A DNA stretch of 55,183 bases, taken from assembly GCA_016213895.1 (NCBI GenBank), contig JACQZJ010000073.1, forward strand, positions 1 through 55,183, given 5' to 3'. Below are positions 2,718-32,471 of this stretch, one piece after another. Position numbers and translations under genes: made by a program. Every line of letters begins with the position of its first letter. Position 1 is the first letter of the stretch. The notes under the pieces were generated by a model. The model worked only from the letters and a program-made list of their open reading frames with translations. It was not told the DNA's origin and searched no databases. Origin of the DNA: Planctomycetota bacterium. Its GTDB lineage: Bacteria; Planctomycetota; B15-G4; JADJEK01.

Positions 2718-2895
2718 CAGCTTCCTCTCTCGGGACTGGAGGATCGGCGGAATCCTGCCCCTCCCGCGAGAGGTTTCACGTTCCTGAGGAAGAGGCCAGA
2801 ACGGCCGGCCGCTGGCGCGGCTGGGCGATCGGGTCAGCAGTGAGACGCAGGGGCGGCGGCGAGGTTCGCTCTAAATCGGACGCGGGGGCAGGACG

Positions 2896-4141
2896 TCAGG
2901 CGAGGAAGGCGTAGCGCAGCAGGAACGCGATCGCCAGGAGGTGCAGCAGGGGATGCCGGCGCCGCGCCCGGCCCGTCACCACGCTGGCGAGCGACAGGCC
3001 GATGAAGCCGAACGCGATCCCCTCCGTGATCGAGAAGCTCACCGGGATGATGAACATCGCCAGGAAGCACGGGGTGGCCTCGGCCGGGTCGTCCCAGTCG
3101 ATGTACGTCGCGCTCTTCGCCATGAGCGCCCCGACCGCGACCAGGGCCGGCGCCAGGACCGGGTAGAACGAGCGCCCGCCGGCCACGACCGGACTGCCCA
3201 CTGCCGCGATGAGCGGCGCGAACGGCAGGGCGAGGAGGAAGAGGCCGGCGGTGAAGAGGTTGGCCAGACCGGTGCGCCCGCCCGCCTGGACGCCCGCCGC
3301 GCTCTCCACGTAGCTCGTGACCGTGGAGGTGCCGAGGGAGGCGCCGACCACGGTAGCCGCCGCGTCGCAGAAGAGCGCGCGGCCCGCGCGCGGCAGCTCG
3401 CCGTTCTTCAGGAAGCCGGCGCGCGCGCCCACGCCGACGAGCGTGCCCACCGTGTCGAACACGTCGAGGAAGAAAAGGACGAACACCACCTCCACCACCT
3501 TGCTCGAGCGGAGCAGCCCGGCGAAGTCGAGCTGCGCGAGCACGGTGGAGAACGCCATGTCGCCGGCGACGATCCCCTCCGGCAGCGGCATCTGCCGCGT
3601 CGCCAGGCCGGCGGCCAGGGTGGCGAGCATTCCCAGGAAGAGGGCGGCGCGCACGCGCAGCGCCAGGAGCACGATGGTCAGCGCGATGCCGAAGAGCGCC
3701 AGCAGGGTCAGCGGCGCGGAGAGGTCCCCGAGCTTGACCAGGGTCGTGGCGTCGTCCTGCACCAGCCCGCCGAACTCCAGGCCGACCATGGCGATCATCA
3801 ACCCGATGCCGGCGGCGATCGCGTGCTTGAGCGAGTCGGGCAGGGCGCGCAGCACCTGCTCGCGGAACTTCACCAGCGCCAGCAGGATGAAAAGCGACCC
3901 CGACAGGAAGCACGCGGCCAGCCCCTGCTGCCAGGTGAGGCCGAGGCCGCCGCCCGCGAGCGGCGCGCAGGCGATGAACGAGAAGAACAGGTTGTGCGAT
4001 CCCGGCCACGTTCATGATGGCCGGCTGCACGAAGAGGATGTAGCTGAGAGTGAGGAAGGTCGTGGCCCCGGCAAGCGCCTCGGTCCGCGGCGAAGTGCCG
4101 GCGCTCTTCAGCCCGAAGCGCCGTTCCAGGATTCCAGCCAT
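2896..4141 (-). pseudogene. NCS2 family (AzgA/GhxP-like) purine permease with internal deletion and frameshift
   Basis: The N-terminal 46 codons from ATG 4141 (RTEALAGATTFLTLSYILF, ending in NVAG) match the start of AzgA-type nucleobase permeases, which import hypoxanthine, guanine or adenine across the inner membrane. Homology then resumes in another frame near 3999 (HNLFFSFIAC) and continues to the stop at 2896 through some ten hydrophobic segments, including 'FFLDVFDTVGTLVGVG'. Compared with E. coli GhxP-type proteins, about 35 residues are missing at the junction, covering the second membrane span and the ALAPxMG signature. The flanks that would meet are both GC-rich 'GCCGGGAT'-like, so a short-homology deletion is plausible. 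A terminator follows at 2682-2717. The gene is either a recent pseudogene or an assembly error; the family call is firm. Confidence 0.85.
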
Positions 4142-4281: not shown

Positions 4282-5220
4282 ATGAACGCCGCCGACATGA
4301 AGTGCTGGCGCGCGGCCGGCGCGATCGCCGCCCGCGTGCGCGATTATGTCGTCTCCCTGATGCGGCCGGGCGCCAGCCTGCTCGAGGTCTCCCTGGAGGG
4401 GCACCGGCTCATGGAGGAGCTCGGCGGGCGGCCGGCCTTTCCCCTGCAGATCTCGCGCAACAGCATCGCGGCGCACTACTGCGCCCACGCCGGCGACCAG
4501 ACCGTCTTCGCGGAGGGAGACCTGGCCAAGGTCGATTGCGGCGTCCACGTGGACGGCTTCGTGGCTGACACGGCCGCGTCCGCCGACCTCTCGCGCGACG
4601 GGCGGCACGCCGGGCTCCTGGCCGCGGCCCGGGAGGCGCTGGACGCGGCAGTGGCCGCGGCCGGGCCGGGAGTCGAGGTGGTCGAGATCGGCCGCGCCGT
4701 GGAGCGGGCGATACAGGCCAGAGGCTACCAGCCGATCAGGAACCTCACCGGCCACGGCGTGGCGCGCTGGACCGTGCACGAGGCGCCGCAGATCCCGAAC
4801 GTCTCCTCGGGCAAGGGCCGCCTGCGGGCCGGCTCGTGCGTCGCGCTCGAGCCCTTCGCCACGGACGGCGGCGGCTCGGTGAGCGAACGCGGCGAGGCGC
4901 ACGTCTTCATGGCCAAGAAGGTGAACCGCAGGATCCGCGGCGCCGACCCGCGCGTGGTGGAGGCCATCCGCGCCTATAACGGCCTGCCTTTTGGCAGCCG
5001 TGACCTGGTCCAGCGCTTCCCCTACAAGCTCGTGGCCGAGACGCTGAACGCCCTGGCCCGCGCCAACCGGCTGGTCGCGTTCCCTCCGCTGTGCGAGAAG
5101 GAGGGGCGTTTCGTGTCGCAGTTCGAGCACACCATCCACGTGTCCGCGGACGGCGTGGAGATCCTGACGCTCGGCGCGGAGGTCTGCGGCAGGACGCAGG
5201 CCGCCGCGACGGCGCGCTGA
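4282..5220 (+). CDS. Type II (archaeal/eukaryotic-type) methionine aminopeptidase
   Basis: This cytosolic metalloenzyme removes the initiator methionine from nascent proteins. The 312-residue protein carries the whole pita-bread active site of class II enzymes: H65 in 'AAHYCAHAGD', metal ligands D85 (KVDCG), D96 (VADTA), H158 (LTGHG), E190 (ALEPF) and E282 (QFEHT). The 'AFPLQISRNSIAAHY' segment and the insertion between H158 and E282 are typical of archaeal and eukaryotic MetAP2, while nearly all bacteria rely on type I. The start is ATG 4282 with AAGGA at proper spacing. The gene is divergent from the broken permease and lies 18 bases before the HtrA gene, so the three plus-strand genes may form an operon. 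All catalytic ligands are present, so it should be active. Confidence 0.9.
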   Translation: MNAADMKCWRAAGAIAARVRDYVVSLMRPGASLLEVSLEGHRLMEELGGRPAFPLQISRNSIAAHYCAHAGDQTVFAEGDLAKVDCGVHVDGFVADTAASADLSRDGRHAGLLAAAREALDAAVAAAGPGVEVVEIGRAVERAIQARGYQPIRNLTGHGVARWTVHEAPQIPNVSSGKGRLRAGSCVALEPFATDGGGSVSERGEAHVFMAKKVNRRIRGADPRVVEAIRAYNGLPFGSRDLVQRFPYKLVAETLNALARANRLVAFPPLCEKEGRFVSQFEHTIHVSADGVEILTLGAEVCGRTQAAATAR

Positions 5221-5238
5221 AGGCGAAGGAGAGGTCCC

Positions 5239-6297
5239 ATGCGCCTGGCCGGCGGAGCCGCCTCCTGGCTGCTGCTCGCCCTGCTGCTCGAGACGGGCGG
5301 CGCGCGCGCGGCGCGCGCGCAGGACGCGGCCGAGGAAGAGGCCATCTTGCGCGACGCCGAGAAGATCGAGCGTTCCCTGGTCAGCCTGGTCAGCCGGATC
5401 AGGGAGTCGACCGTGGCCGTGGTGCGCTACGTCGCAGAGGACAAGGACGGCCTGGCCACGGAGGTCGGCGGCGGCATGGGCTCGGGCGTGGTCGTCTCGA
5501 ACGACGGGAAGGTGTTCACCAACGTCCACGTCATCGAGGACGCCGTGCGCATCGAGGTGGTGTTCAGCGACGGGCTGACCGCGCAGGCCGAGCTGTTCAA
5601 CAAGATGCCGCTCTACGACTTCGCCCTGCTGCGCGTGCGCCGCGCCGACCTGCGCCCGGCGGACTTCGCCAAGACCAGCCTGGTCGAGCCGGGGCAGTGG
5701 GTCCTGGCGGCCGGCAATCCCCGCGGCCTCGGCATGGACGGCGAGCCCATCGTCACGCTCGGCATCGTCTCCGGCAAGGGGCGCGTCGCCGGCGGCAAGT
5801 ACCAGTACCACAACGCGGTGCAGACCGACGCCGAGATCAACCCGGGCAACTCCGGAGGGCCGCTCTTCGACCTGAACGGCCGCGTCATCGGCATCAACGG
5901 CCTGATCTCGACGGTGAACAACGCCAGCGCGAACATCGGCGTCGGCTTCACCATCCCGGCCGACCAGATCGCCAGCTTCCTGCCGAGCATGCTCTCGGGC
6001 GAGACGGTGGAGCCGGGCTACAGCGGCATCCAGATCGAGCCGCGCACGGACGAGAAGGGGGGAGTCATGGTGAGGAGCGTCGAGCGCCGGTCGCCCGCGG
6101 ACAAGGTGGGCATCCGGCCGGGCGACCGCATCACCGGCCTGAACGGCAAGCCCATCGACGGCATCACCGCCTGGGCGAACGAGGTGGCGATGCTGCCGGG
6201 CGGCAGGACCGTGACGCTGCGCCTGGTGCGCGAGAACCGCTCCCTGGTGAAGAAGCTCACGCTGGAAACGCAGGCCAAGGACGAGACGCCGAAATGA
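5239..6297 (+). CDS. HtrA/Deg-like trypsin-fold serine protease with one PDZ domain, exported
   Basis: This is a 352-residue envelope protease of the HtrA family. A Sec signal peptide (residues 1 to about 27) precedes a trypsin-like domain with a complete triad: H97 in 'TNVHVIED', D127 in 'YDFALLRV' and S205 in 'NPGNSGGP'. A single PDZ domain follows (about 262-345, with 'SPADKVGIRPGDRITGLNG'). HtrA proteins degrade or refold misfolded envelope proteins and use the PDZ domain to sense exposed C-termini. The start is ATG 5239 behind GGAGAGG. Its stop codon overlaps the start of the next gene (ATGA at 6294-6297), so the two products should be made together, which suggests a complex with the pseudoprotease. 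HtrA-like is certain; the subclass is not. Confidence 0.92.
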   Translation: MRLAGGAASWLLLALLLETGGARAARAQDAAEEEAILRDAEKIERSLVSLVSRIRESTVAVVRYVAEDKDGLATEVGGGMGSGVVVSNDGKVFTNVHVIEDAVRIEVVFSDGLTAQAELFNKMPLYDFALLRVRRADLRPADFAKTSLVEPGQWVLAAGNPRGLGMDGEPIVTLGIVSGKGRVAGGKYQYHNAVQTDAEINPGNSGGPLFDLNGRVIGINGLISTVNNASANIGVGFTIPADQIASFLPSMLSGETVEPGYSGIQIEPRTDEKGGVMVRSVERRSPADKVGIRPGDRITGLNGKPIDGITAWANEVAMLPGGRTVTLRLVRENRSLVKKLTLETQAKDETPK

Positions 6298-8027
6298 CGC
6301 CCCGCCGCGCCGGCCCCCTGCTCGTGCTCCTGCTCGCGGCCCGCGCGGCCGGACAGATGGGCTCGCTCTCCAGCCTGGACGAGGAGTTCACCAGGGTCGT
6401 GCGCGAGATCGCGCCGGCGGTGGTCCAGGTCCAGCCGGGCATCTCTGGCGTGTGCCTGACGGACGACGGCTACGTGCTGACGAACCGCATCGTCCTCGAG
6501 GCCCTCGAGAAGACCGGGTCGCGCACGGTCAAGGTGACGTTCCCCGCGCAGCTCGCCTACGACGCCGTCGTGCACGCCGCGGACGCCGAGACGAACACGG
6601 TCATCCTCAAGATCGACGCGCGCGCGAGCTTGCCCTGCGTCCGGCCGGGCGAGCCCGGGGAACTCGCGGTCGGCCACCTCCTGATGACCGTCGGGAACGC
6701 CTTCGGCACGGCCACGGAGAGCGAGCCCGCGGTCACGCTCGGCGTGGTCTCCTCGATCCGGCGCGACCTGCAGGGCCGCCCGGCCGTCATCGAGACCTCG
6801 GCCGCGACCAACCCCGGGCAGCACGGCGGGCCGTACTTCGACACCGACGGCAAGCTGGTGGGAGTGTTCCGGGCGCTGCCCGACGGCCAGGACCTGGCGA
6901 CGGTGACGCCCATCGATCTGATCCGCGCGGCCTACTCCTCGATCCCGGCAGCGACGCGCATCTTCTCCGACCCGTCGAAGCTGCGCCCGCCGCGCAGCAA
7001 GGCGGGCGTTCTCTCCCGCGCCTTCCACATCGCGGCGAGCCGGGCGCGCCAGGGCGTCGTCACCATCGCCATCACGCGCGCGCCCCGGGAGGAGCCGGCG
7101 CAGGCGGAGACCGCGGCCGAGCAGGAGCCGGAGCGCGGGGACGGAGGCGGCGAAGGGCGGCGCAACGAAGGAAGGAAGGACAAGGAACGCGAAGAGGCCG
7201 CGGTGCCGGCGCGGGAAGGCTCCGTCACGGGCACCATCATCGACCCGCGCGGCTTCGTGCTCGCGCCCGAGCCGGCCTTTGGCGCCGACGTCAGCGCGAT
7301 CGAGGTGTTCCTCGCGGATGGGCGCAGCTTCCGCGCCACGGTGCACGCGCGCGACCGCAAGTCGCGGCTCGCCCTGCTCCTCCTGGACCGGAAGCCGGAG
7401 GACGTGCTCGAAGTGCTCGGCGACGTACCGCAGGACGCGCTGCAGGTCGGGCAGTTCGCCGTGGCGGTGGCCGCGCCGCACGGCCCGCCGGCCGAACAGG
7501 AGCCGTTCGTGACGGTCGGCCTGCTCTCGGGCCGGCACCGGCTCGACGCCTACCGGGACGCCCTCCAGACCGACGCGGGCGTCAACGTGAAGAACGCCGG
7601 AGGCGTGCTCGTCGACCTGCGGGGCAGGATGTGCGGCGTCATCCTGCCGCCGGAGATGCCCTTCGGCCAGAACTCCGGGCTGGGCTTCGCCATGCCGGTC
7701 GACGCCCTGCGCGCCGTGCTGCCGCGCATGATGGAGGGACGCGACGTCGAGCCGGCCTACATCGGCGTCGTGCTCGGGGACGCTCCCGGCGGCCGCGCCG
7801 GCGTGCTGGTCAACGAGGTGACCGAGGGCTTCCCGGGCGCCGCGGCCGGTCTCAAGCCCGGGGACGTCATCACCCACCTGGACGGCGTGCTGGTCGCGAA
7901 CCGGCGCGCCTTCACCGACCACCTGTGGAAGCACAAGGGCCCCGGCGATCCCTTGACCGTGACGGTCGAACGCCTCGGCGAGAAGCTCGATCTCGCGGTC
8001 ACGCTCACGCGCCGGCCCGAGGAGTGA
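6294..8027 (+). CDS. Exported tandem pseudoprotease: two degenerate HtrA-type trypsin folds plus a PDZ domain
   Basis: This 577-residue protein has a signal peptide (1 to about 20), a trypsin-like fold (about 25-215), a charged low-complexity linker (about 264-305), a second trypsin-like fold (about 308-480) and a C-terminal PDZ domain (about 487-573). In fold 1 the catalytic His motif reads 'LTNRIVLE' (63-70), the Asp position reads 'ETNTVILKID', and the GNSGGP motif reads 'NPGQHGGP' (173-180), so all three catalytic residues are gone. In fold 2 the Ser motif reads 'VKNAGGVLV' (432-440) and no His motif remains. It therefore cannot be a classical serine protease. The four-base overlap with the active HtrA gene suggests a regulatory, scaffolding or substrate-delivery partner; this role is inferred. 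Confidence 0.88.
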   Translation: MTPRRAGPLLVLLLAARAAGQMGSLSSLDEEFTRVVREIAPAVVQVQPGISGVCLTDDGYVLTNRIVLEALEKTGSRTVKVTFPAQLAYDAVVHAADAETNTVILKIDARASLPCVRPGEPGELAVGHLLMTVGNAFGTATESEPAVTLGVVSSIRRDLQGRPAVIETSAATNPGQHGGPYFDTDGKLVGVFRALPDGQDLATVTPIDLIRAAYSSIPAATRIFSDPSKLRPPRSKAGVLSRAFHIAASRARQGVVTIAITRAPREEPAQAETAAEQEPERGDGGGEGRRNEGRKDKEREEAAVPAREGSVTGTIIDPRGFVLAPEPAFGADVSAIEVFLADGRSFRATVHARDRKSRLALLLLDRKPEDVLEVLGDVPQDALQVGQFAVAVAAPHGPPAEQEPFVTVGLLSGRHRLDAYRDALQTDAGVNVKNAGGVLVDLRGRMCGVILPPEMPFGQNSGLGFAMPVDALRAVLPRMMEGRDVEPAYIGVVLGDAPGGRAGVLVNEVTEGFPGAAAGLKPGDVITHLDGVLVANRRAFTDHLWKHKGPGDPLTVTVERLGEKLDLAVTLTRRPEE

Positions 8028-10756: not shown

Positions 10757-10907
10757 TCGTCATTGCAGCCCCACGTCATCTCGCCGCGACCGATCCCTAA
10801 ACATCTGTCTTCGAACAACTTGAAGCGAAGCGCCTTCTCTGGAACAGCGCTTGCTTTCGCCCTGGCACGTCCCGAATGCTCCGCCAGACTCGATGGAGAC
10901 AAAGACG

Positions 10908-11345
10908 ATGAACAGCAACTGGTTCGGTCGGTTCCCGGCCATGGTCGACATGCATCCAGCGTTCGACCGCATCTTCGATGAGTTGTTCCGCGACGTCTCG
11001 CGCTTCAGCGCCGCGCCCTACCCGCCCATGAACGTGCGCGAGGAAGAGGACTCTCTGGTCGTCACGGCCGAGGTTCCGGGCGTCGATCCGGAGTCCCTCG
11101 ATGTGAAGGTCCAGGGCGACGTGCTGGTCCTCGCTGGCACTCGCCGGCCGGTGGTCGAGGACGGGTCGACCGCCCGCCTGCTCCGCCAGGAGCGCGGCTT
11201 CGGCCAGTTCACCCGTGAGATCAACCTTCCGGTGAAGGTCGACGGCGGCGGCGTCGAGGCTCGCTGCGACCTGGGCGTGCTCACGATCACCCTGCCCAAG
11301 GCGCCCGAGGCCAGGCCGCGCCTGATCAAGGTCAGGGCGAACTGA
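10908..11345 (+). CDS. Small heat-shock protein, Hsp20/alpha-crystallin family (first of a tandem pair)
   Basis: This 145-residue ATP-independent chaperone binds unfolding proteins in the cytoplasm and hands them to DnaK/ClpB. An N-terminal arm ('FDRIFDELFRDVSRF') precedes the alpha-crystallin domain (about 38-135), which contains 'VTAEVPGVDPESLDVKV' and the closing 'CDLGVLTITLPKA' motif. A short C-terminal tail with 'RLIKV' supplies the I/V-x-I/V-type anchor. The ATG at 10908 is chosen because GGAG lies about 9 bases upstream; earlier in-frame codons (10851 TTG, 10893 ATG) lack a suitable site. The second sHsp follows after 19 bases, so the two should be co-transcribed and may form mixed oligomers. 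No CIRCE element or clear sigma-32 box is visible upstream. Confidence 0.92.
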   Translation: MNSNWFGRFPAMVDMHPAFDRIFDELFRDVSRFSAAPYPPMNVREEEDSLVVTAEVPGVDPESLDVKVQGDVLVLAGTRRPVVEDGSTARLLRQERGFGQFTREINLPVKVDGGGVEARCDLGVLTITLPKAPEARPRLIKVRAN

Positions 11346-11364: not shown

Positions 11365-11754
11365 ATGAACCCGATCGAAGCCAGGGACGCGACGGTGGCC
11401 GCCTTTTCCCGCGTGGAAAGCCGCCAGACGACGATCTACTCGCCGCGCACGGACGTGCTCGAGTTCGACGACCGCATGGAGATCAAGCTCGACGTGCCGG
11501 GCGTGGCGGCGGACGCGATCGACGTCAAGTTCGAAGAGAACACCCTGTTGATCCGCGCCATCCGCGAGGAGAACGCGAGCGGGGGCTACCTGCACCGCGA
11601 GTTCGGAGACGCCCAGTTCCGGCGGGCCTTCACCCTGCCGAAGGGGCTGGACCCGACCTGCATCGAGGCGTCGCTCCGGAACGGCATCCTCACCCTCTCC
11701 CTGCCCAAGGCCGAGGAGATGAAGCCGCGCCAGATCAAGGTGAGCGGCCGCTGA
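11365..11754 (+). CDS. Small heat-shock protein, Hsp20/alpha-crystallin family (second of the pair)
   Basis: This 129-residue Hsp20 has a shorter N-terminal arm than its neighbour. The alpha-crystallin domain (about 28-122) includes 'EIKLDVPGVAADAIDVKF', the hairpin segment 'YLHREFGDAQFRRAFTLP' and the signature 'NGILTLSLPKAEE', followed by 'RQIKV'. It starts at ATG 11365 with AAGGAG 7 bases upstream and lies 19 bases behind the first sHsp gene, so the two genes form an operon. The two proteins are only distantly similar to each other, which suggests an old duplication or separate origins, as seen in bacteria with class A and class B sHsps acting together. Directly downstream begins a repeat-rich stretch. 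Confidence 0.92.
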   Translation: MNPIEARDATVAAFSRVESRQTTIYSPRTDVLEFDDRMEIKLDVPGVAADAIDVKFEENTLLIRAIREENASGGYLHREFGDAQFRRAFTLPKGLDPTCIEASLRNGILTLSLPKAEEMKPRQIKVSGR

Positions 11755-11817
11755 GCGGCAGCAGCCGGAGTGCGCCCTCCCCACGATGTCGCAGCGGCTC
11801 GTGCTTCCCCCTGATAC

Positions 11818-12189
11818 GCCACGGCCGAGCCGCGTACACGGCGGCAGGCCTCTTCGCCACGGCTGAGCCGCGGTTGCTGCGGCGAGTCCGCGCGCCGCAG
11901 TTGAGCCGCGCCCATGGCGGCAGGCTTCTTCGCCACGGCTGGGCCGCGGTTGCTGCGCGCGCCGCAGTTGAGCCGCGCCCATGGCCGCGTGTCCCTTCGC
12001 CACCGCTGAGCCGCGGTTGCTGCGGCACGGCTGGGCCGCGGTTGCTGCGGCGAGTCCGCGCGCCGCAGTTGAGCCGCGCCCATGGCCGCGTGTCCCTTCG
12101 CCCCGGCCGAGCCGCGTACATGGCGGCAGACCTCTTCGCCACGGCTGAGCCGCGGTCGCTTCGGCAAGCTTGCTTGCCGGAGCGACCGT
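11818..12189. repeat. Mosaic array of GC-rich palindromic repeats
   Basis: About five to seven imperfect units start with a variant of 'CACGGCTGAGCCGCGG'. Several continue through a palindromic core (TGCGGCGAGTCC then GCGCGCCGCA) and 'GTTGAGCCGCGCCCATGG' to 'CCTTCGC'. Full units are about 75 bases; others are shortened. The array ends in a 36-base palindrome at 12153-12188: arms CGGTCGCT and CGGCAAGC around a central TT, with one mismatch. Related AAGCTT-centred palindromes recur at 15650, 15784 and 15880. The array fills the whole interval between the sHsp operon and the 3' end of the first giant secreted protein gene. Confidence 0.75.
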
Positions 12190-12208
12190 CGGATCAAGCC
12201 GGGGCAGA

Positions 12209-12234
12209 TGGCGCGGCGCGCAGCGTCCGCGCCA
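12209..12234 (-). terminator. Hairpin directly after the stop codon of the first giant secreted protein gene
   Basis: TGGCGCGG (12209-12216) pairs with CCGCGCCA (12227-12234); the loop itself is GC-rich and can pair further. It abuts the stop codon and lacks a T-run. The same hairpin, base for base, follows the paralogue at 16030-16055. It may terminate transcription or protect the mRNA end. Confidence 0.5.
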
Positions 12235-15200
12235 TCAGTATTTGAACGGCACCCTCAAGAAGTTCATCTGCGGCCGCGGCGTGTCCGGCTGCGCCGGGAA
12301 GGCCGGGTTGGTGGCGATGTCGAAGCGCACCGCCCAGCGGATGAAGCGCCTGCCGTTTAGAAGCGTGATGTCGCTGACGAAGCCCGAAGCGGTCGCGAGG
12401 TCGGGCATGCCCGGATTCGCCGGGTCCTCGTCCGCGCCCTGGAAGTACACGGCCACGCTCTGGTAGTAGAGCGGCCCCTCGGGGATGAAGTCCGCGAGCA
12501 GCACCTTCTCGTCGGGCGCGTCCACATCGAAGTCGTTCGTCCCCGGATCGAGGACGCAGCCAAAGCCGTCGGTAAGCACCTTGCCGGTGGTGGTGCTCGT
12601 GCCGTGGAAAAACGGCCCCACGCCCGGCACGCCGAAGATCGGTCCGTCAAGAGGGCCGGCCGAGGTCGGCAGCGGCGGCCGGAACGTCCTGGTCACCGCG
12701 CCCAGGTCATACCAGGTCGAACGCGCCGACGACTTCGAGGTGAGCGGCGTGGGCGTGCTCTCCATGGGCACCAGCGGATTGAAGTCGGAGAGACCGCCGC
12801 TGGCGCAGGTGATGTTGAAGACCGAGGCATTGATCTTGGCGTTGATCTTGGATCCGGTGATGAGGTTCGGCGCCCCTGGCGGTTTGTGGATCTGGACGAT
12901 CCCCGGACCGCCCGGGCCGCCGTCGAAGCACTGCAGCACGTTGCTGTCGCCGCCCGTGACGCCGGTGGTCGCGCCGCTCGAGATCACCGAGGCGTTGTGG
13001 CCGCAGCCGCCGGAGACGTCGATCACGACCGCGACCAGCGCCGGGTCGTTCATCTTCACGTTGACCGCGGACTGCAGGATCACGGCCCCGCCGCTGCCGC
13101 CGCCGCCGCTGCCGCCGCGGCTTCCCATCCCGATCTCCTCGCCGCCCTTGCCGCGGCCGCCCTTGGCCTCAATCTTGGCCGCGTTGCCGCGGATCTCGAT
13201 GGTCCCGAGCGCTTGCACGAGCAGCGCTCCGCCCCCGCCCCCGCCCCCGCCGCCGCGCGCGTCGAGCACCGTGAAGGGCAGGCCCGAGTTATCGAAAACC
13301 GGGACCTTGCACTGCTGGGAGAGCCCCTCGGTACGGCTTCCGGCCCCGCCCCCGCCCTGCCCGCCGATCACGGTCTGGACCTCGCCGCCCGGGCCGATGA
13401 AGTTGTTGTCCGGGTCCTCGTCCACGAACACGCCCGGTCCGGCCGACCCGTACATCGTGACCCGCTTGGTCGTTGGCCAGGTCTTGGTGATGTCCATGAG
13501 CGGGGGGCTATCCCAGATCCATCCCTGCTGATAGGCCTGGGCGAACGTGGGATTCAGGTTGACCCGCGCCACGGCGTTCGTCGGGTTTCCAGGCTTGGCC
13601 ATGTACGCGTCGGGCGGCGGCGGGATGGGATCGCCGGGCTTGAAGGGCATGGGCAGGTGGTTGCCGATGCCGATGGCGCCGCGGCGGCCGCTCACCGGGA
13701 TTCCGGCCGTCTCGGGCGTGTTCGGGAAGAAGACGTTCAAAGACCCGCCGCCGCCGCCTGAGCCCCGGCTGCCGTCGCCCGCGGAGTAGTAGTTGCTGAA
13801 GCAGTTGGACGCCGCGCCGTTGAACGGCTCCCAGGGCAGGGTGCAGCCGCACTGGCCGCCGCCGCCGCCTCCGGGGCCCTTGTTCCCCGGCCCGTAGCCG
13901 CTCTGGCCAAAGGCCGGCGTCTGGATGTACTTGAGCGACGCGGCGCCCGCCGGGCTCGTGACCGGGTGGCTGTCCCCACCCTTGCCAGCGCCCGGCCCGG
14001 GCGAGCCGCCCGGCATAGGCGTCATGGAGGAGTCGAACGTGTCGTCCTCCGTGCCGTCGCTGCCGTTCAGGTCGATCCTCCCTTCGATCAGCACATTGCC
14101 CGTGGCCGTGATGATCAGCGGGTTGCTCCCCTCGGCGATCAGCTTCACGTTCTCCGGCAGCGTGAAGTCGGTGAAGTTGAACACGCCGCCAACCACGACC
14201 GTTCCCGGCTCCACATCCGGAGTGGCGCCCGAGAACAGCGGGAACGTCTGGTAGTTGGTATCGAGGTGGACGACGATCTCCTGGGTCGTGGGAGGAGCGA
14301 AGCGCCCGAGAGACCCGTCGCCGCCGAAGCCGAAGGACGCGCGCAGCGTGTTGGAGTTGGCCGCGTCCCAGCCCGCCGCCTGCTGGCCCTCGGCGGCGAG
14401 CGACGCGTCCTGGTGGACCACGTCGTCGAAGTCCTCGTACAGGTAGTCATCCACCGCTGTCCCGGGGTACGGGTCGAGCGCCACGCCGTAGTGCGCGATC
14501 TGCGCGTACTCCTCGGGTCCCTTGCTGTCCATCGGCACGCCGCCCAGCGACTCGAAGTTGTCCGCGATCTCGAGCGCGATGGTGTGCCCGAGCGGCAGGA
14601 TCCCCATCGGGTAGAGCAGGACGTCCGCCCTCTTCACCGTGTTCTTCGTGAGGAGCGCGGTCGAGCCGAGGACCACGTCCTCCGGCGCCCCCTCGGGCGT
14701 GCGGATCGCGCGCAGGCGCAGGAGCCCGCCCGCGATGTTCTCGGTCGCGGTGTCCACCGGGCCGTCGAACACGACCCGGAAGGGCGGCCGCCGCGCGGCC
14801 TCGATCCCGGAGAACAGCCCGGCCGGGTCGTGGAACACGTTGGGGTGGATGCCCGTCGCCCCAGCCGCGGGCGCCAGCTTGTTCGTCTTGACGTGCAGCG
14901 GCTTCGGCGAAGCGTTGGCGAAGAACGCCACCCTGATCGCCGTGGTGCGGAACGTCTGCGGCACCGCTGCCCCCTTGGCGATGCCCGTCAGGTTCTTCAC
15001 CGAGTTCGCCGTGCCGACCGTCACGCTGATCTCGTAAATCGTGTCCGGCAGGAGCCCGGGCAGCGAGCTGTCGCCCGCGACGTCGGAGGCGGGCGTGAAG
15101 GAGGTCGTGAGCGCGACCACGGGCAGCCGCGGCGTGAAGAGCACGCTGTTCCCCGAGACCGAGTACTTGCCGTAGGCCAGCCCGCCGATGGGCTGGCCCG

Positions 15201-15447: not shown

Positions 15448-15566
15448 GGCGAACCTCCGGGCGGCTCAGGCTTGACCAGACCAGCAGACGATTCCGACGC
15501 TGCTACGGCGCCGCTCTCCGCCTGTTTGTACCAGAAGAGTAGCACGCGGCAACACGCGACGGGCAC

Positions 15567-16029
15567 GCCTTTCTTGCCGCAGCGACCGCCGGTGGCACGC
15601 GCGAGGTACGGTCTCCGTGGCGGGCTTCCTTGCCGCCGCCGTTGAGCTGCGGTTGCGAGGCAAGCTTGCTTGCCGCAGCGACCGCCGGTGGCACGCGCCA
15701 GGATGCCGCCGGGCCTTCCTTCTCCCCGCCGCGACTGAGGTACGGTCTCCGTGGCGGGCTTCCTTGCCGCCGCCGTTGAGCCGCGGTCGCGAGGCAAGCT
15801 TGCTCGCCGCAGAGACCGCCGGATGCACGCGCGAGGTACGGTCTCCGTGGCGGGCTTCCCTGCCGCCGCCGTTGAGCCGCGGTCGCAAGGCAAGCTTGCT
15901 CGCCGCAGCGACCGCCGGTGGCACACGCCAGGATGCCGCGGGGCCTTCCTTCTCCCGGCCGCGACTGAGCAGCGGCCGCTGCGGCGAGTCCGCTCGCCGC
16001 GGCGAGCCGTCGGCTCCAGTCGCGGCAGA
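15567..16029. repeat. Direct-repeat array with palindromic cores between the two giant secreted protein genes
   Basis: Three long units begin 'GAGGTACGGTCTCCGTGG' at 15603, 15737 and 15833. Each continues through 'CGGGCTTCC' and 'GCCGCCGCCGTTGAG' into an AAGCTT-centred palindrome (15650-15684, 15784-15818, 15880-15914). The first and third units are followed by a 'CAGGATGCCGC...CTTCCTTCTCCC' segment that the second lacks. A partial palindrome half lies at about 15571, and another palindrome (GCGGCGAG/CTCGCCGC) near 15977. The AAGCTT palindrome is shared with the array at 11818-12189. The whole 600-base interval is made of this material; no gene is evident. Confidence 0.8.
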
Positions 16030-16055
16030 TGGCGCGGCGCGCAGCGTCCGCGCCA
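16030..16055 (-). terminator. Hairpin directly after the stop codon of the second giant secreted protein gene
   Basis: The same 8-bp GC stem (16030-16037/16048-16055) and loop as at 12209-12234, again abutting the stop codon. The identical block reaches from the last codons of the gene through the hairpin, so the duplication or a conversion tract included the 3' flank. Confidence 0.5.
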
Positions 16056-19000
16056 TCAGTATTTGAACGGCACCCTCAAAAAGTTCACCTGCGGCCGAGG
16101 AGTTTCCGGCTGCGGCGGGAAGCTGGGGTTGGTCGCGATATCGAAGCGGATCTCCCAGCGCACGAAGCGCCTGCCGTTCAGCAGCGAGATGTCGCTGACG
16201 AAGCCGGTCGCGGTCGTCAGGTCCGGCGCTCCCGGGTTCTGCGGGTCCGCGTCCGCCCCCTCGAACAACACCGCCACGCTCTGGAAGTAGCTTGGCCCGT
16301 TGGGAATGAAGTCCGGGAGGAGGAGCTTGCTGTCCGGCGCGTCGACCGCGATGTCGTTCAGGAAGGGCTCGACCACGTAGCCCAGGGAATCGGTCAGCAC
16401 CTCGCCCGCGTTGGGATCCGTGCCCTTGAAGAAGGGCCCCACTCCCGGGATGCCGAAGAGCGGGCCCTCGAGCGCGCCGGCGCCGGTGATGACCGGCGGG
16501 CGGAAGTCGGAGGTCACTGCGCCGAGGTCGTACCAGACGGAACGCGCCATCGACCCGGGAGTGAGCGGCGTGGGCGTCCGCTCCATCGGCACGAGCGGGT
16601 CGATCTTCTTCTGGACCGCGATCGAGCACGCCATGTTCTGCACCGACGCGCTCACGCGGGCGATAATCTTCGCCGTGTCGATCATGTTGGGCGCGCCCGC
16701 TGGAACGTGGATCTGCACGATCCCGGGCCCGCCCGGCCCGCCGTCGAAGCACTGCAGGACGTTCGAATCCGCGCCGGCCACGCCGCCGGTCGTGGACGTG
16801 GACATGTTGATCGCGTCATCCCCGCAGCCGCCGGACACGTCGATCACCTCGCCCTGGAGAGACGTGTCGTTCATGATCACGTTCGCCGCGGACTGCAGGA
16901 TCACGGCCCCGCCGGAGCCGCCGCCGCCGCCGCCCCCGCGGCTCGAGTCCTGAGTGCCCTCGCCGCCGCCGCCGTCGCCGCCCTTGGCCTCGATCTTGGC
17001 CTTCGAGCCGCGGATCTCGATGGTCCCGAGCGCCTGGATGAGCATCGCGCCGCCGCCGGCGCCGCCCCCGCCCCCGCGCGCGTCGAGCACGGTGAACGGG
17101 TACCCGGCGTTGTTGAAGATCACGACCTTGCAGTCCTGGTCCAGACCCTCGGTGCGCGAGCCTGCGCCGCCGCCCCCCTGCCCGCCGATCACGGAGCTGA
17201 CCTCGCCGCCCGATCCGATGAAGTTGTTGTCCGGATCCTCGTCGACGAACACGCCTGGACCGGCGTTGCCGTAGAGCGTGATCTTGTGGGTCTTCGGCCA
17301 GTCCAGATCGATCTTGAACGCGATGTCTGTTCCGGTCGAAGTCTTGACGATGTCGTAGATCATCCCCTGCTGGTAGGCCTGGGTGAAGGTCGGGTTCGGG
17401 TTGGCCATGGCCACGGCGTTCGTGGGGTTGCCCGGCTGGGCCTGGTAGGCTCCGGGCTCCGAAGGGATGGGCTGGCTCGGCTTGAAGGCCACCGGCAGGT
17501 GGTTGCCGATCCCGATGGTGCCGCGCCGCCCGCTCACCGCCACTCCAGGAGGTTCGGGCACCGCGGGGAACATCGGCAGGGTCGGTTGGTCGGGATAGAA
17601 CACGCCGAACGACCCTCCGCCCCCTCCCGAGCCGCGGCTGCCGTCTCCCGTGCCCGCGTAGCCCGTGCAGGTGTTGGGGGTGAAGCTGATCCACGGCAGG
17701 GTGCACCCGCACTGCCCGCCGCCGCCGCCGCCCGGCCCCTTGTTCCCCGGGCCGTAGCCGCTCTGCGCGTACTGCGGAGTCTGCATGAACTTGAGGGACG
17801 AGGCGCCCGCCAGGCTCTTCACCGGATGGCCGTCGCCTCCCTTGCCGCCGCCCGGCCCGGGCGATCCGCCCGGCATGGGCGTGATGGCGGAGTCGAACGT
17901 GTCGTCTCCGGTGCCGAACGAGCCGTTCAGGTCGATCTCGCCCTCGATGACCACGTTGCCCGTGGCGGTGATGATCAGCGGGTTGCTGCCGCGCGCCACG
18001 ATCGTGGCCAGCGAAGGCAGGTGGAAGTCGGTGAAGTTGAACACGCCGCCGACCACCGCGGTCCCCGGCTCCACGTCCGGCGTCGAGCCCGAGAACAGCG
18101 GAAACGCCTGGTAGTTGGTGTCGAGGTAGATGGTCACGGGCTGGGTCGTGGGCGGAAGGAAGCGGCCGAGCGATCCGTCGCCGCCGAAGCCGAAGGAGGC
18201 CTTGAGCACGTTCGAGTCGGCCGCGTCCCAGCTCGCGAGCTGCTCGCCCGCCGCGGCGATCGACGTGTCCTGGCGGCTGGTGGTGTCGAAGTCCTCGTAC
18301 AGGTAGTCGTCCACCGCCGTGCCGGGCTGCGGGTCGAGCGCCACGCGGTACTCCGCCAGCCTCTGGAAGTCGTCCGGCGCCGTGGAGTCGATCTGCACGC
18401 CGCCCAACGACTCGAACGTATTCGAGACCTCCAGCGCGATCGTGTGTCCCAGGGGCAGGATGCCGCTCGGGTAGAGCAGCACCTCGGCGCGCTTCACCTT
18501 GTTCTTGACCAGGAGGGGCGTGCCGCCGATGACGATGTCCTCGGCCGCTCCGTCCGGCGTGAGGATCGCGCGCAGCCGGATGCGCTCGGCCGCGATGTTG
18601 TCCGCGGCGCTGTTCACGGGCGCGTCGAACACGATCTTGAAGGGCGGGTGCTTGCTCGCGTCGATCGCGGTGAAGAGCCCGGCGGGATCGTGGAAGACGT
18701 TGGGATGGATGCCCGTCGCGCCCGCCGCGGGCGTGAGCTTGTCCTTCTTCGCCTCCACCGGATCGGGAGACGCGTTGTAGAAGAGCGGCGCGGAGGCGAT
18801 GGTCTTGAACTTGACGGGCAGCCCGACCGTCTTGCTGATGTTCTTCAGGTTCTTGACCGAGTTCGGCGCGTCGATCGTCACGCTGATCGCGTAGGTCGTG
18901 TCGGGCAAGAGGCCGGGGAGCGAGACGTTTCCGGCCACGTCCGTGGTCGTGCCGAACGAGGTAGTGATCGGCGCCACGGGCAGGCGCGGCGTGAAGAGGA

Positions 19001-30906: not shown

Positions 30907-31160
30907 GACGACCTCCGTCTTCCAGCAGGCCTGGACGAACCCAGGCACGGCGTTACCCGAGGACCAACGGCAGCCTAGAGAGCCCCAGCAAAGCCGGGGC
31001 CAGCGGCGAAGGTCCACGCCGTGGCTGGGAATGGTTTCCCAGCAGGTAGCGACCCCGGGACGTTCCTGCCCGCCGGGATTCCCGCGTCCCGTGCGCTCCG
31101 CGCCGTGAAATCGGTTACCCTGATGGCAGCGGGGATGGGCACCCCGATGACGAGGTCTCC

Positions 31161-32471
31161 ATGAGGAAGCGGTCGCTTCCCTACGGGCTCCTGGCGGCCG
31201 TGGGGGTGATCTGTTTCGCGGCAGGCTCGATTCTCGCCCCGGACTTCTCGCGCCTCGGCACCCTGTTCGCGAAGTCCGCGGCCAGCCCCAGGCCCGTGGT
31301 GGAGCGCAGCATCCCCCTGGCGCAGGGCGAACAGGCCGCGGTCGAGCTGTTCGAACGGGCCTCCCCCTCGGTCGTGTTCATCGCCACCAGCCACATGAAG
31401 AAGGAGGTCCGCATCCCGGGCGAGCGCTGGCCGGTTCCCATCGCTGAAGACGTGCACCGCGACCTGCGCCGGCGCTGGCACGACGCGCCCGGTCCGATCG
31501 CGGTGCCGGCCGGCGAGGACGGCAGGCTCGCGACCTTCGACCCGCTCGCCACGCCGGAGAACTTCGCCTGGGACAGCGGCTCGGGCATCGTGTGGGACGA
31601 AACCGGGAACATCGTGACCAACTACCACGTGGTCGAGGAAGCCTGGGACATGGTCGTGCGCCTCCCCGACCTGAGCGACTGGCCGGCGCGGCTCGTCGGC
31701 TACGACGAAGACAAGGACCTCGCGGTGCTGCACATCGCCGCGCCGCAAGAGCGCCTGTTTCCGATCCTGGTCGGCAGCTCGGCCCGCCTGCGCGTCGGGC
31801 AGAAGGCCTACTCCATCGGCAACCCCTTCGGCCTGTCGAGCACGCTCACCGAGGGGATCATCTCGGCTCTCGGCCGCACCATCCGCTCCGGCACGGGCGC
31901 GGGACGCATCATCCAGGACGTCATCCAGACGGACGCCGCCATCAATCCCGGCAACTCGGGCGGGCCGCTGCTCGATTCGGCCGGGCGGCTGATCGGCGTC
32001 ACCACCGCGATCGTCTCGGAGGACGCGGCCGACCCCGCCCACGGCCTGGCCATCGGCATCGGCTTCGCCGTGCCGGTGGACACCATGAACCGCATCGTCC
32101 CGGACCTGATCAACTTCGGCAGGCCCTCGCGCGCCGGCCTGGGCGTGCGCGTGCAGAGCGAACTCGACAACAGGATCGACGGCGTGATGATCGCCTTCGT
32201 GGTGCCGGACAGCCCGGCCGACAGCGCCGGCCTGCGCGGCGGCATGGACGCGGACACGCTGCGCTTCGACCGCCTGGGCGACATCATCACCGCCATCGAC
32301 GGCGAGCCGGTGTCGAACTTCGACGACCTCTACCGCCTCCTCGACAGCCGCTCCCCGGGCGACATGGTCGAGGTGACCTACCGCCGCGGCGCCGAGACCC
32401 TGGCGGCCGAGATCGAGCTCAGGCTCCTGCCGCCGGAGGACGGCGGCGCGGACGAGGCGGGCCGGCCATAG
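31161..32471 (+). CDS. HtrA/DegS-like serine protease with PDZ domain, N-terminally anchored
   Basis: This 436-residue envelope protease has an N-terminal membrane anchor (about 8-26) rather than an obvious cleavage site. Its trypsin fold (about 60-320) has a complete triad: H156 in 'TNYHVVEE', D186 in 'DKDLAVLHI' and S266 in 'INPGNSGGP'. It also has the activation-loop region 'IGNPFGLSSTLTEGIISALG' and one PDZ domain (about 330-425, 'SPADSAGLRGG'). The architecture recalls DegS or HhoA, anchored in the inner membrane with the domains in the periplasm. An insertion between residues 80 and 130 is longer than in the classical enzymes. ATG 31161 follows GAGG. It is independent from the HtrA at 5239 and differs in having all catalytic parts in one chain. 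Confidence 0.93.
   Translation: MRKRSLPYGLLAAVGVICFAAGSILAPDFSRLGTLFAKSAASPRPVVERSIPLAQGEQAAVELFERASPSVVFIATSHMKKEVRIPGERWPVPIAEDVHRDLRRRWHDAPGPIAVPAGEDGRLATFDPLATPENFAWDSGSGIVWDETGNIVTNYHVVEEAWDMVVRLPDLSDWPARLVGYDEDKDLAVLHIAAPQERLFPILVGSSARLRVGQKAYSIGNPFGLSSTLTEGIISALGRTIRSGTGAGRIIQDVIQTDAAINPGNSGGPLLDSAGRLIGVTTAIVSEDAADPAHGLAIGIGFAVPVDTMNRIVPDLINFGRPSRAGLGVRVQSELDNRIDGVMIAFVVPDSPADSAGLRGGMDADTLRFDRLGDIITAIDGEPVSNFDDLYRLLDSRSPGDMVEVTYRRGAETLAAEIELRLLPPEDGGADEAGRP

Follow-up and report, generated by a model that had tools for sequence, protein, structure and literature searches.

An HtrA protease gene overlapping a gene for a double-headed pseudoprotease in Planctomycetota, and a proposed protease trimer with one live and two dead heads

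The gene pair and its surroundings

The window (the whole stretch of 55,183 nucleotides that was analysed) corresponds to contig C67. The draft genome to which it belongs measures 5.5 Mb and is related to metagenome-assembled genomes of Planctomycetota. The window contains two overlapping genes (Table 1). The first encodes an HtrA protease with a complete catalytic triad (P0001, or A), and the second encodes a protein with two degenerate trypsin folds and a PDZ domain (P0002, or D1-D2-PDZ). The open reading frames, their coordinates and the ATGA overlap were all exactly as described in the initial annotation, and the overlap suggests that translation of the two genes may be coupled.

Table 1. 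Features of the gene pair and of its surroundings in the window
Feature	Position	Strand	Basis or remark
Xanthine/uracil-type permease	2834-4141	-	split over two overlapping frames
Body of the permease (325-aa frame)	2896-3873	-
Type II methionine aminopeptidase	4282-5220	+	above NCBIfam cut-off; 18 nt upstream of the HtrA gene
Ribosome-binding-like AAGGAGAGG ahead of A gene	5226-5234	+	read from sequence
Active HtrA (A, P0001), 352 aa	5239-6297	+	signal-like N-terminus, trypsin fold, one PDZ
A catalytic trypsin fold	5479-5895	+	Pfam Trypsin_2, residues 81-219
A triad codons	H97 5527-5529, D127 5617-5619, S205 5851-5853	+	triad sites in their motifs
A PDZ domain	6025-6243	+	Pfam PDZ_2, residues 263-335
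ATGA stop/start overlap of the two genes	6294-6297	+	read directly
Double-headed pseudoprotease (D1-D2-PDZ, P0002), 577 aa	6294-8027	+	signal-like N-terminus, Pfam, AlphaFold2
D1, first dead trypsin fold	6444-6866	+	Pfam Trypsin_2, residues 51-191
Charged, probably disordered insertion, loop LA position of D2	7095-7199	+	AlphaFold2 pLDDT < 50
D2, second dead trypsin fold	7218-7733	+	Pfam, profile alignment
Pseudoprotease PDZ	7758-8006	+	Pfam PDZ_2, residues 489-571
HSP20 small heat-shock gene	10851-11345	+
HSP20 small heat-shock gene	11365-11754	+
Direct-repeat cluster	11736-12477
Gly-rich protein, 1070 aa	12235-15447	-	probably exported
Direct-repeat cluster	15563-16298
Second, ordinary HtrA	31050-32468	+	intact HDS, one PDZ

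In P0001, Pfam detected Trypsin_2 with an E value of 8e-32 and a PDZ domain besides. Residues 97, 127 and 205 are His, Asp and Ser, as had been claimed for the upstream gene, and the serine lies in a GNSGGP motif. The Trypsin_2 fold, the His-Asp-Ser triad and the C-terminal PDZ that define HtrA/Deg proteins are all present. The score against the NCBIfam Do family model (TIGR02037) was 236 bits, below the curated cut-off of 416. On fold and triad, P0001 is classified as an HtrA outside the curated Do subfamily.

P0002 gave two Trypsin_2 stretches (whole-protein E value 4e-32) and PDZ_2 (E value 1e-13) in Pfam, and thus has the fold and the PDZ of HtrA/Deg proteins but not the catalytic triad. 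In the profile alignment, the triad sites are occupied by I66, N101 and H177 (GQHGGP) in D1 and by P327, R358 and A435 (KNAGGV) in D2. Judged from its sequence, P0002 is a pseudoprotease paralogue of HtrA/Deg and is probably exported. The AlphaFold2 model of P0002 minus the signal peptide had a pLDDT of 84.8 and a pTM of 0.82, and its best PDB matches were DegP, DegS and DegQ (E value about 1e-24), indicating that both dead heads are true HtrA-type trypsin folds. Pfam, profile alignment and AlphaFold2 agree with the initial annotation, which had described two trypsin folds with erased triads plus a PDZ and had named structure prediction as a check on the folds. A charged hinge had also been described. 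The charged stretch exists (residues 268-302, low confidence in AlphaFold2), but it lies inside D2, between strands 1 and 2 (235-242 and 291-297 in the numbering of the folded query), and not between the folds. Among the NCBIfam and Pfam matches listed, none was a model for the dead-dead-PDZ layout in particular.

The gene neighbourhood was rejected as a guide to function. The aminopeptidase upstream, whose type is typical of archaea and eukaryotes, was found beside the pair in no family but that of the window, the aminotransferase downstream in no genus but the window's, and the remaining recurrent neighbours are mostly antisense ORFs. The permease gene, with its start in a 435-aa frame and its body in another, is either frameshifted or an assembly error. 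The second HtrA of the window lies outside the paired unit by its layout. Two tandem HSP20 genes lie a few kilobases away from the pair of protease genes and possibly form a proteostasis neighbourhood with it. The two clusters of degenerate G+C-rich direct repeats lie on either side of the gene for the Gly-rich protein, for which no Pfam match was found. A 30-nt unit, GGCAAGCTTGCTTGCCGGAGCGACCGTCGG, recurs in both clusters, and so does a 292-nt stretch, its copies being 85% identical.

Conservation and packaging of the unit in Planctomycetota

The dead-dead protein or its profile was searched against 148 and then 392 Planctomycetota genomes, and the flanks were fetched. At least 71 further full dead-dead units were found beyond that of the window. 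With the window's unit and the three-gene loci counted, the spread is at least 65 genomes and at least 24 families. His, Asp and Ser occurred together in none of 71 D1 folds and in none of 71 D2 folds; some D2 folds retain Asp or Ser at single triad sites. In a restricted-pattern scan of 84,980 species, double-dead loci appeared only in Planctomycetota-type records, one of them labelled PVC group.

Loci were picked for their resemblance to the dead-dead protein, and 68 of them, the window included, had enough flank. An HtrA with its triad complete was adjacent or fused in 64 of these; L159, L171 and L203 run to the contig edge and were left out of the 68. Since the window's genome has about 10 HtrA-like genes, the chance of such adjacency is roughly estimated at less than one percent per gene. 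Conserved adjacency in related genomes had been named beforehand as a check on the pairing, and the active HtrA was beside the second gene in nearly all of them. The four exceptions (L155, L170, L173 and L194) are not assembly gaps, and each of their genomes has an active HtrA elsewhere, which groups with the partner clade and not with the ordinary HtrAs. At L165, two active genes surround one dead-dead gene.

Two further kinds of locus were observed. Lone D2-like dead genes with FRY or FQY at the triad sites and two PDZs are present at L204 and L208 (both family f26) and at L214, and neither an active nor a first dead gene was detected in their surroundings. Contig C636 of genome G224 (L148 and L078) carries two dead-dead genes with an active gene between them. 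The row is truncated at the contig ends and may represent two copies of the A+D1+D2 unit in tandem.

One active and two dead folds were packaged in six arrangements among the loci read. The active gene precedes the dead-dead gene at 24 loci and in the window, and follows it at 32 loci and at L215. The folds are joined in one A-D-D-PDZ chain in four genomes (L057, L151, L154 and L156, with L057 paired with L084 and L154 with L085), and in one dead-dead-active-PDZ-PDZ chain of 957 aa at L193. These opposite-order fusions are independent events. Three consecutive genes occur in the order active, dead, dead at 11 loci (L061, L066, L205-L207, L209-L213 and L217) and in the order dead, dead, active at L216. 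The genomes are mostly draft metagenome-assembled genomes, and three-gene loci are also present in the single-contig genomes G059, G079, G184, G290, G384 and G388, of which G059, G184 and G290 belong to family f26. The ratio is almost always one live fold to two dead folds. Because a two-domain query favours dead-dead proteins, this count is unbiased for the three-gene and fused loci alone.

Selection was estimated as dN/dS by the Nei-Gojobori method (own script) between the window and one genome of the same genus. The values were 0.15 for D1, 0.24 for D2, 0.22 for the PDZ and 0.29 for the trypsin fold of A; that of the charged insertion was 0.57. The dead folds are constrained at least as strictly as the live fold and are under purifying selection, and their structural glycines are invariant. 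The identity of 88% to the same-genus counterpart and the co-inheritance across the phylum indicate that the observation is not due to chance.

A tree was built from 134 trypsin folds (quick IQ-TREE run with SH-aLRT). All 38 D1 folds fell into one group (support 83) and all 38 D2 folds into another (support 96), the latter with a dead gene from each of two loci of the three-gene type; the partner HtrAs were set apart from the ordinary HtrAs (support 93). D1, D2 and A each divide into the same two subgroups, active-first and dead-first. Subject to the caveats of a short alignment, some long branches, the quick method and an unplaced first dead gene of L066, the separate groups with congruent splits fit one ancient A+D1+D2 set passed on as a unit. 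The partnership of the two proteins, which the initial annotation had drawn from the ATGA overlap and shared export, is backed by the fusions in both orders, the three-gene versions and the congruent trees.

A proposed heterotrimer and its alternatives

HtrA proteases are homotrimers in which control passes between adjacent subunits. Their functional unit is a trimer of protease domains (PMC3640471). In HTRA1, loop L3 is contributed by the adjacent protomer, and a monomeric inactive variant (R274Q) together with a trimeric inactive variant (D174R-S328A) gives active heterotrimers (PMC11252331). The degenerate protease domain of Arabidopsis Deg7 is involved in trimerization (PMC3473262). One active and two dead folds make exactly three under every packaging, which fits a trimer. 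The natural one-chain fusion L084 (829 aa) was modelled by AlphaFold2 with a pLDDT of 87.1 and a pTM of 0.89, and its four domains are predicted, judging by the confidence scores, to take one defined arrangement. Such a pTM would be unexpected if the three folds were loosely strung together, although homologous folds in tandem can also score high because the predictor has learned trimers of HtrA.

Based on the trimeric HtrA units, the fold of this fusion, the HTRA1 heterotrimers and the role of the dead Deg7 domain, we propose with a probability of about 0.6 that the two genes encode one exported protease. It would be an A:D1:D2 heterotrimer with a single active site, in which two pseudocatalytic subunits assemble and control A. 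A, D1 and D2 would associate as the usual HtrA trimer, with D1 and D2 joined in one chain in the window, and each trimer would have one working active site, that of A. The dead heads would complete the trimer interface. They would also provide the contacts on which HtrA active sites depend, in which loop L3 of a protomer touches loop LD of the next one. The PDZs on A and D2 would set when the active site is on, the dead heads relaying their signals to the live head. It is in this sense that we infer the assembly, stoichiometry, L3-LD relay, allostery, activity, substrate and biological role of A:D1:D2. The initial annotation had left the second protein as an allosteric partner, substrate receptor or inhibitor; the present data narrow these roles towards co-subunits of one mixed trimer. 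Counted against the heterotrimer are the four dead-dead genes unlinked from their partner, the lone genes at L204, L208 and L214, and L165 with its two active genes. Known trimer-site aromatics are not clearly retained; at the column that we assigned as equivalent to F278 of HtrA1, aromatics were found in 55% of A, 31% of D1, 57% of D2 and 50% of ordinary HtrAs, a comparison that speaks neither for nor against assembly.

Alternatively, A may form an ordinary A3 homotrimer to which the dead-dead protein binds as a separate accessory, for instance as substrate receptor, adaptor or inhibitor. This would agree with each two-gene A being recognisably an HtrA with its own PDZ and complete triad, and the PDZ of the dead protein could serve in substrate or peptide binding. 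An accessory is considered unlikely, because the fused proteins L084 and L193 tie A 1:1:1 to D1 and D2, the fusion is predicted to fold at high pTM, the fused A of family f59 has no PDZ of its own, and the dead heads keep full trypsin folds where an adaptor would need the PDZ alone. The heterotrimer is the preferred reading because HtrAs work as trimers.

Retention of catalysis in one of the dead heads through another set of residues is very improbable; single Asp or Ser sites kept in some D2 folds would allow for it, but the full triad is absent from every D1 and D2 fold counted, and the window's folds lack all three residues. HtrA paralogues in tandem and losses of catalytic residues are frequent, and P0002 might be the relic, or a weakly used paralogue, of a plain duplication. 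Such decay hardly comes into consideration, given the long open frames throughout the phylum, the low dN/dS on both dead folds, the fact that D1 and D2 each form a single deep group, and the invariant glycines; the selection and age data rule it out as the main explanation. It is improbable, if less so, that the two proteins are inherited together without contact and that the dead protein has its own task in the same compartment, for example metal or ligand binding as in MamO. MamO has been repurposed for metal binding, a physical interaction between MamE and MamO was undetected (PMC4794232), and some dead-dead genes here are unlinked from an active gene. The two independent fusions of opposite order and the adjacency retained across many families argue against such separateness, and the genomes with unlinked dead-dead genes still carry a partner-clade A.

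Comparison with known systems

The nearest natural pair is MamE/MamO of magnetotactic bacteria, an active HtrA and a catalytically dead protein with a trypsin fold, both encoded in one gene island. MamO is needed for MamE proteolysis without use of its own triad, and MamE activation depends on the TauE domain of MamO (PMC4794232). P0002 differs in having two dead folds and a C-terminal PDZ, whereas MamO combines a single trypsin fold with a TauE-like transporter domain and binds metal; Pfam found no TauE domain in P0002, and its score against the NCBIfam MamO model was 43.8 bits (cut-off 800). Plant Deg7 also combines an active and a degenerate trypsin fold with PDZs (PMC3473262), but it has one dead fold per chain in the layout PD-PDZ-PDZ-PDia-PDZ-PDZ. 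Here there are two dead folds per active fold, usually in a separate gene, and P0002 has one PDZ instead of the four of Deg7; the fusions (A-d-d-PDZ or d-d-A-PDZ-PDZ) also differ from it. The engineered HTRA1 heterotrimers resemble the proposed complex in that a dead subunit and a second inactive monomer yield an active enzyme (PMC11252331), but they are man-made point mutants of one gene, whereas the planctomycete slots are three, evolved and separately conserved. P0001 and the D2-PDZ half of P0002 have the same fold and domain order as DegS, DegP and DegQ, but the latter form homotrimers or multiples of them with every active site intact. In ClpP/ClpR, inactive paralogues replace some active subunits of a protease ring; its fold is unrelated to HtrA, and it is AAA+-driven and cytosolic or plastid. 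In the open-access literature, to which the search was confined with subscription journals outside its scope, no description of a dead-dead-PDZ protein with an active HtrA was found.

These results suggest that a quality-control protease whose three parts are normally identical has been rebuilt, with one part working and two regulatory. With almost the same confidence as the complex itself, we consider it to be a heterotrimeric HtrA of ancient origin, widespread in Planctomycetota and encoded by a single gene, by two or by three. Two of its three slots would be permanently without catalysis and serve as dedicated assembly and sensing subunits. If so, catalysis would be split from control into three distinct subunits, which would make the direction of cross-talk and the need for three active sites testable, and the natural one-chain versions let any single head be altered. 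The planctomycete protease would then be a natural counterpart of the engineered dead-subunit rescue in HTRA1, a human disease protease.
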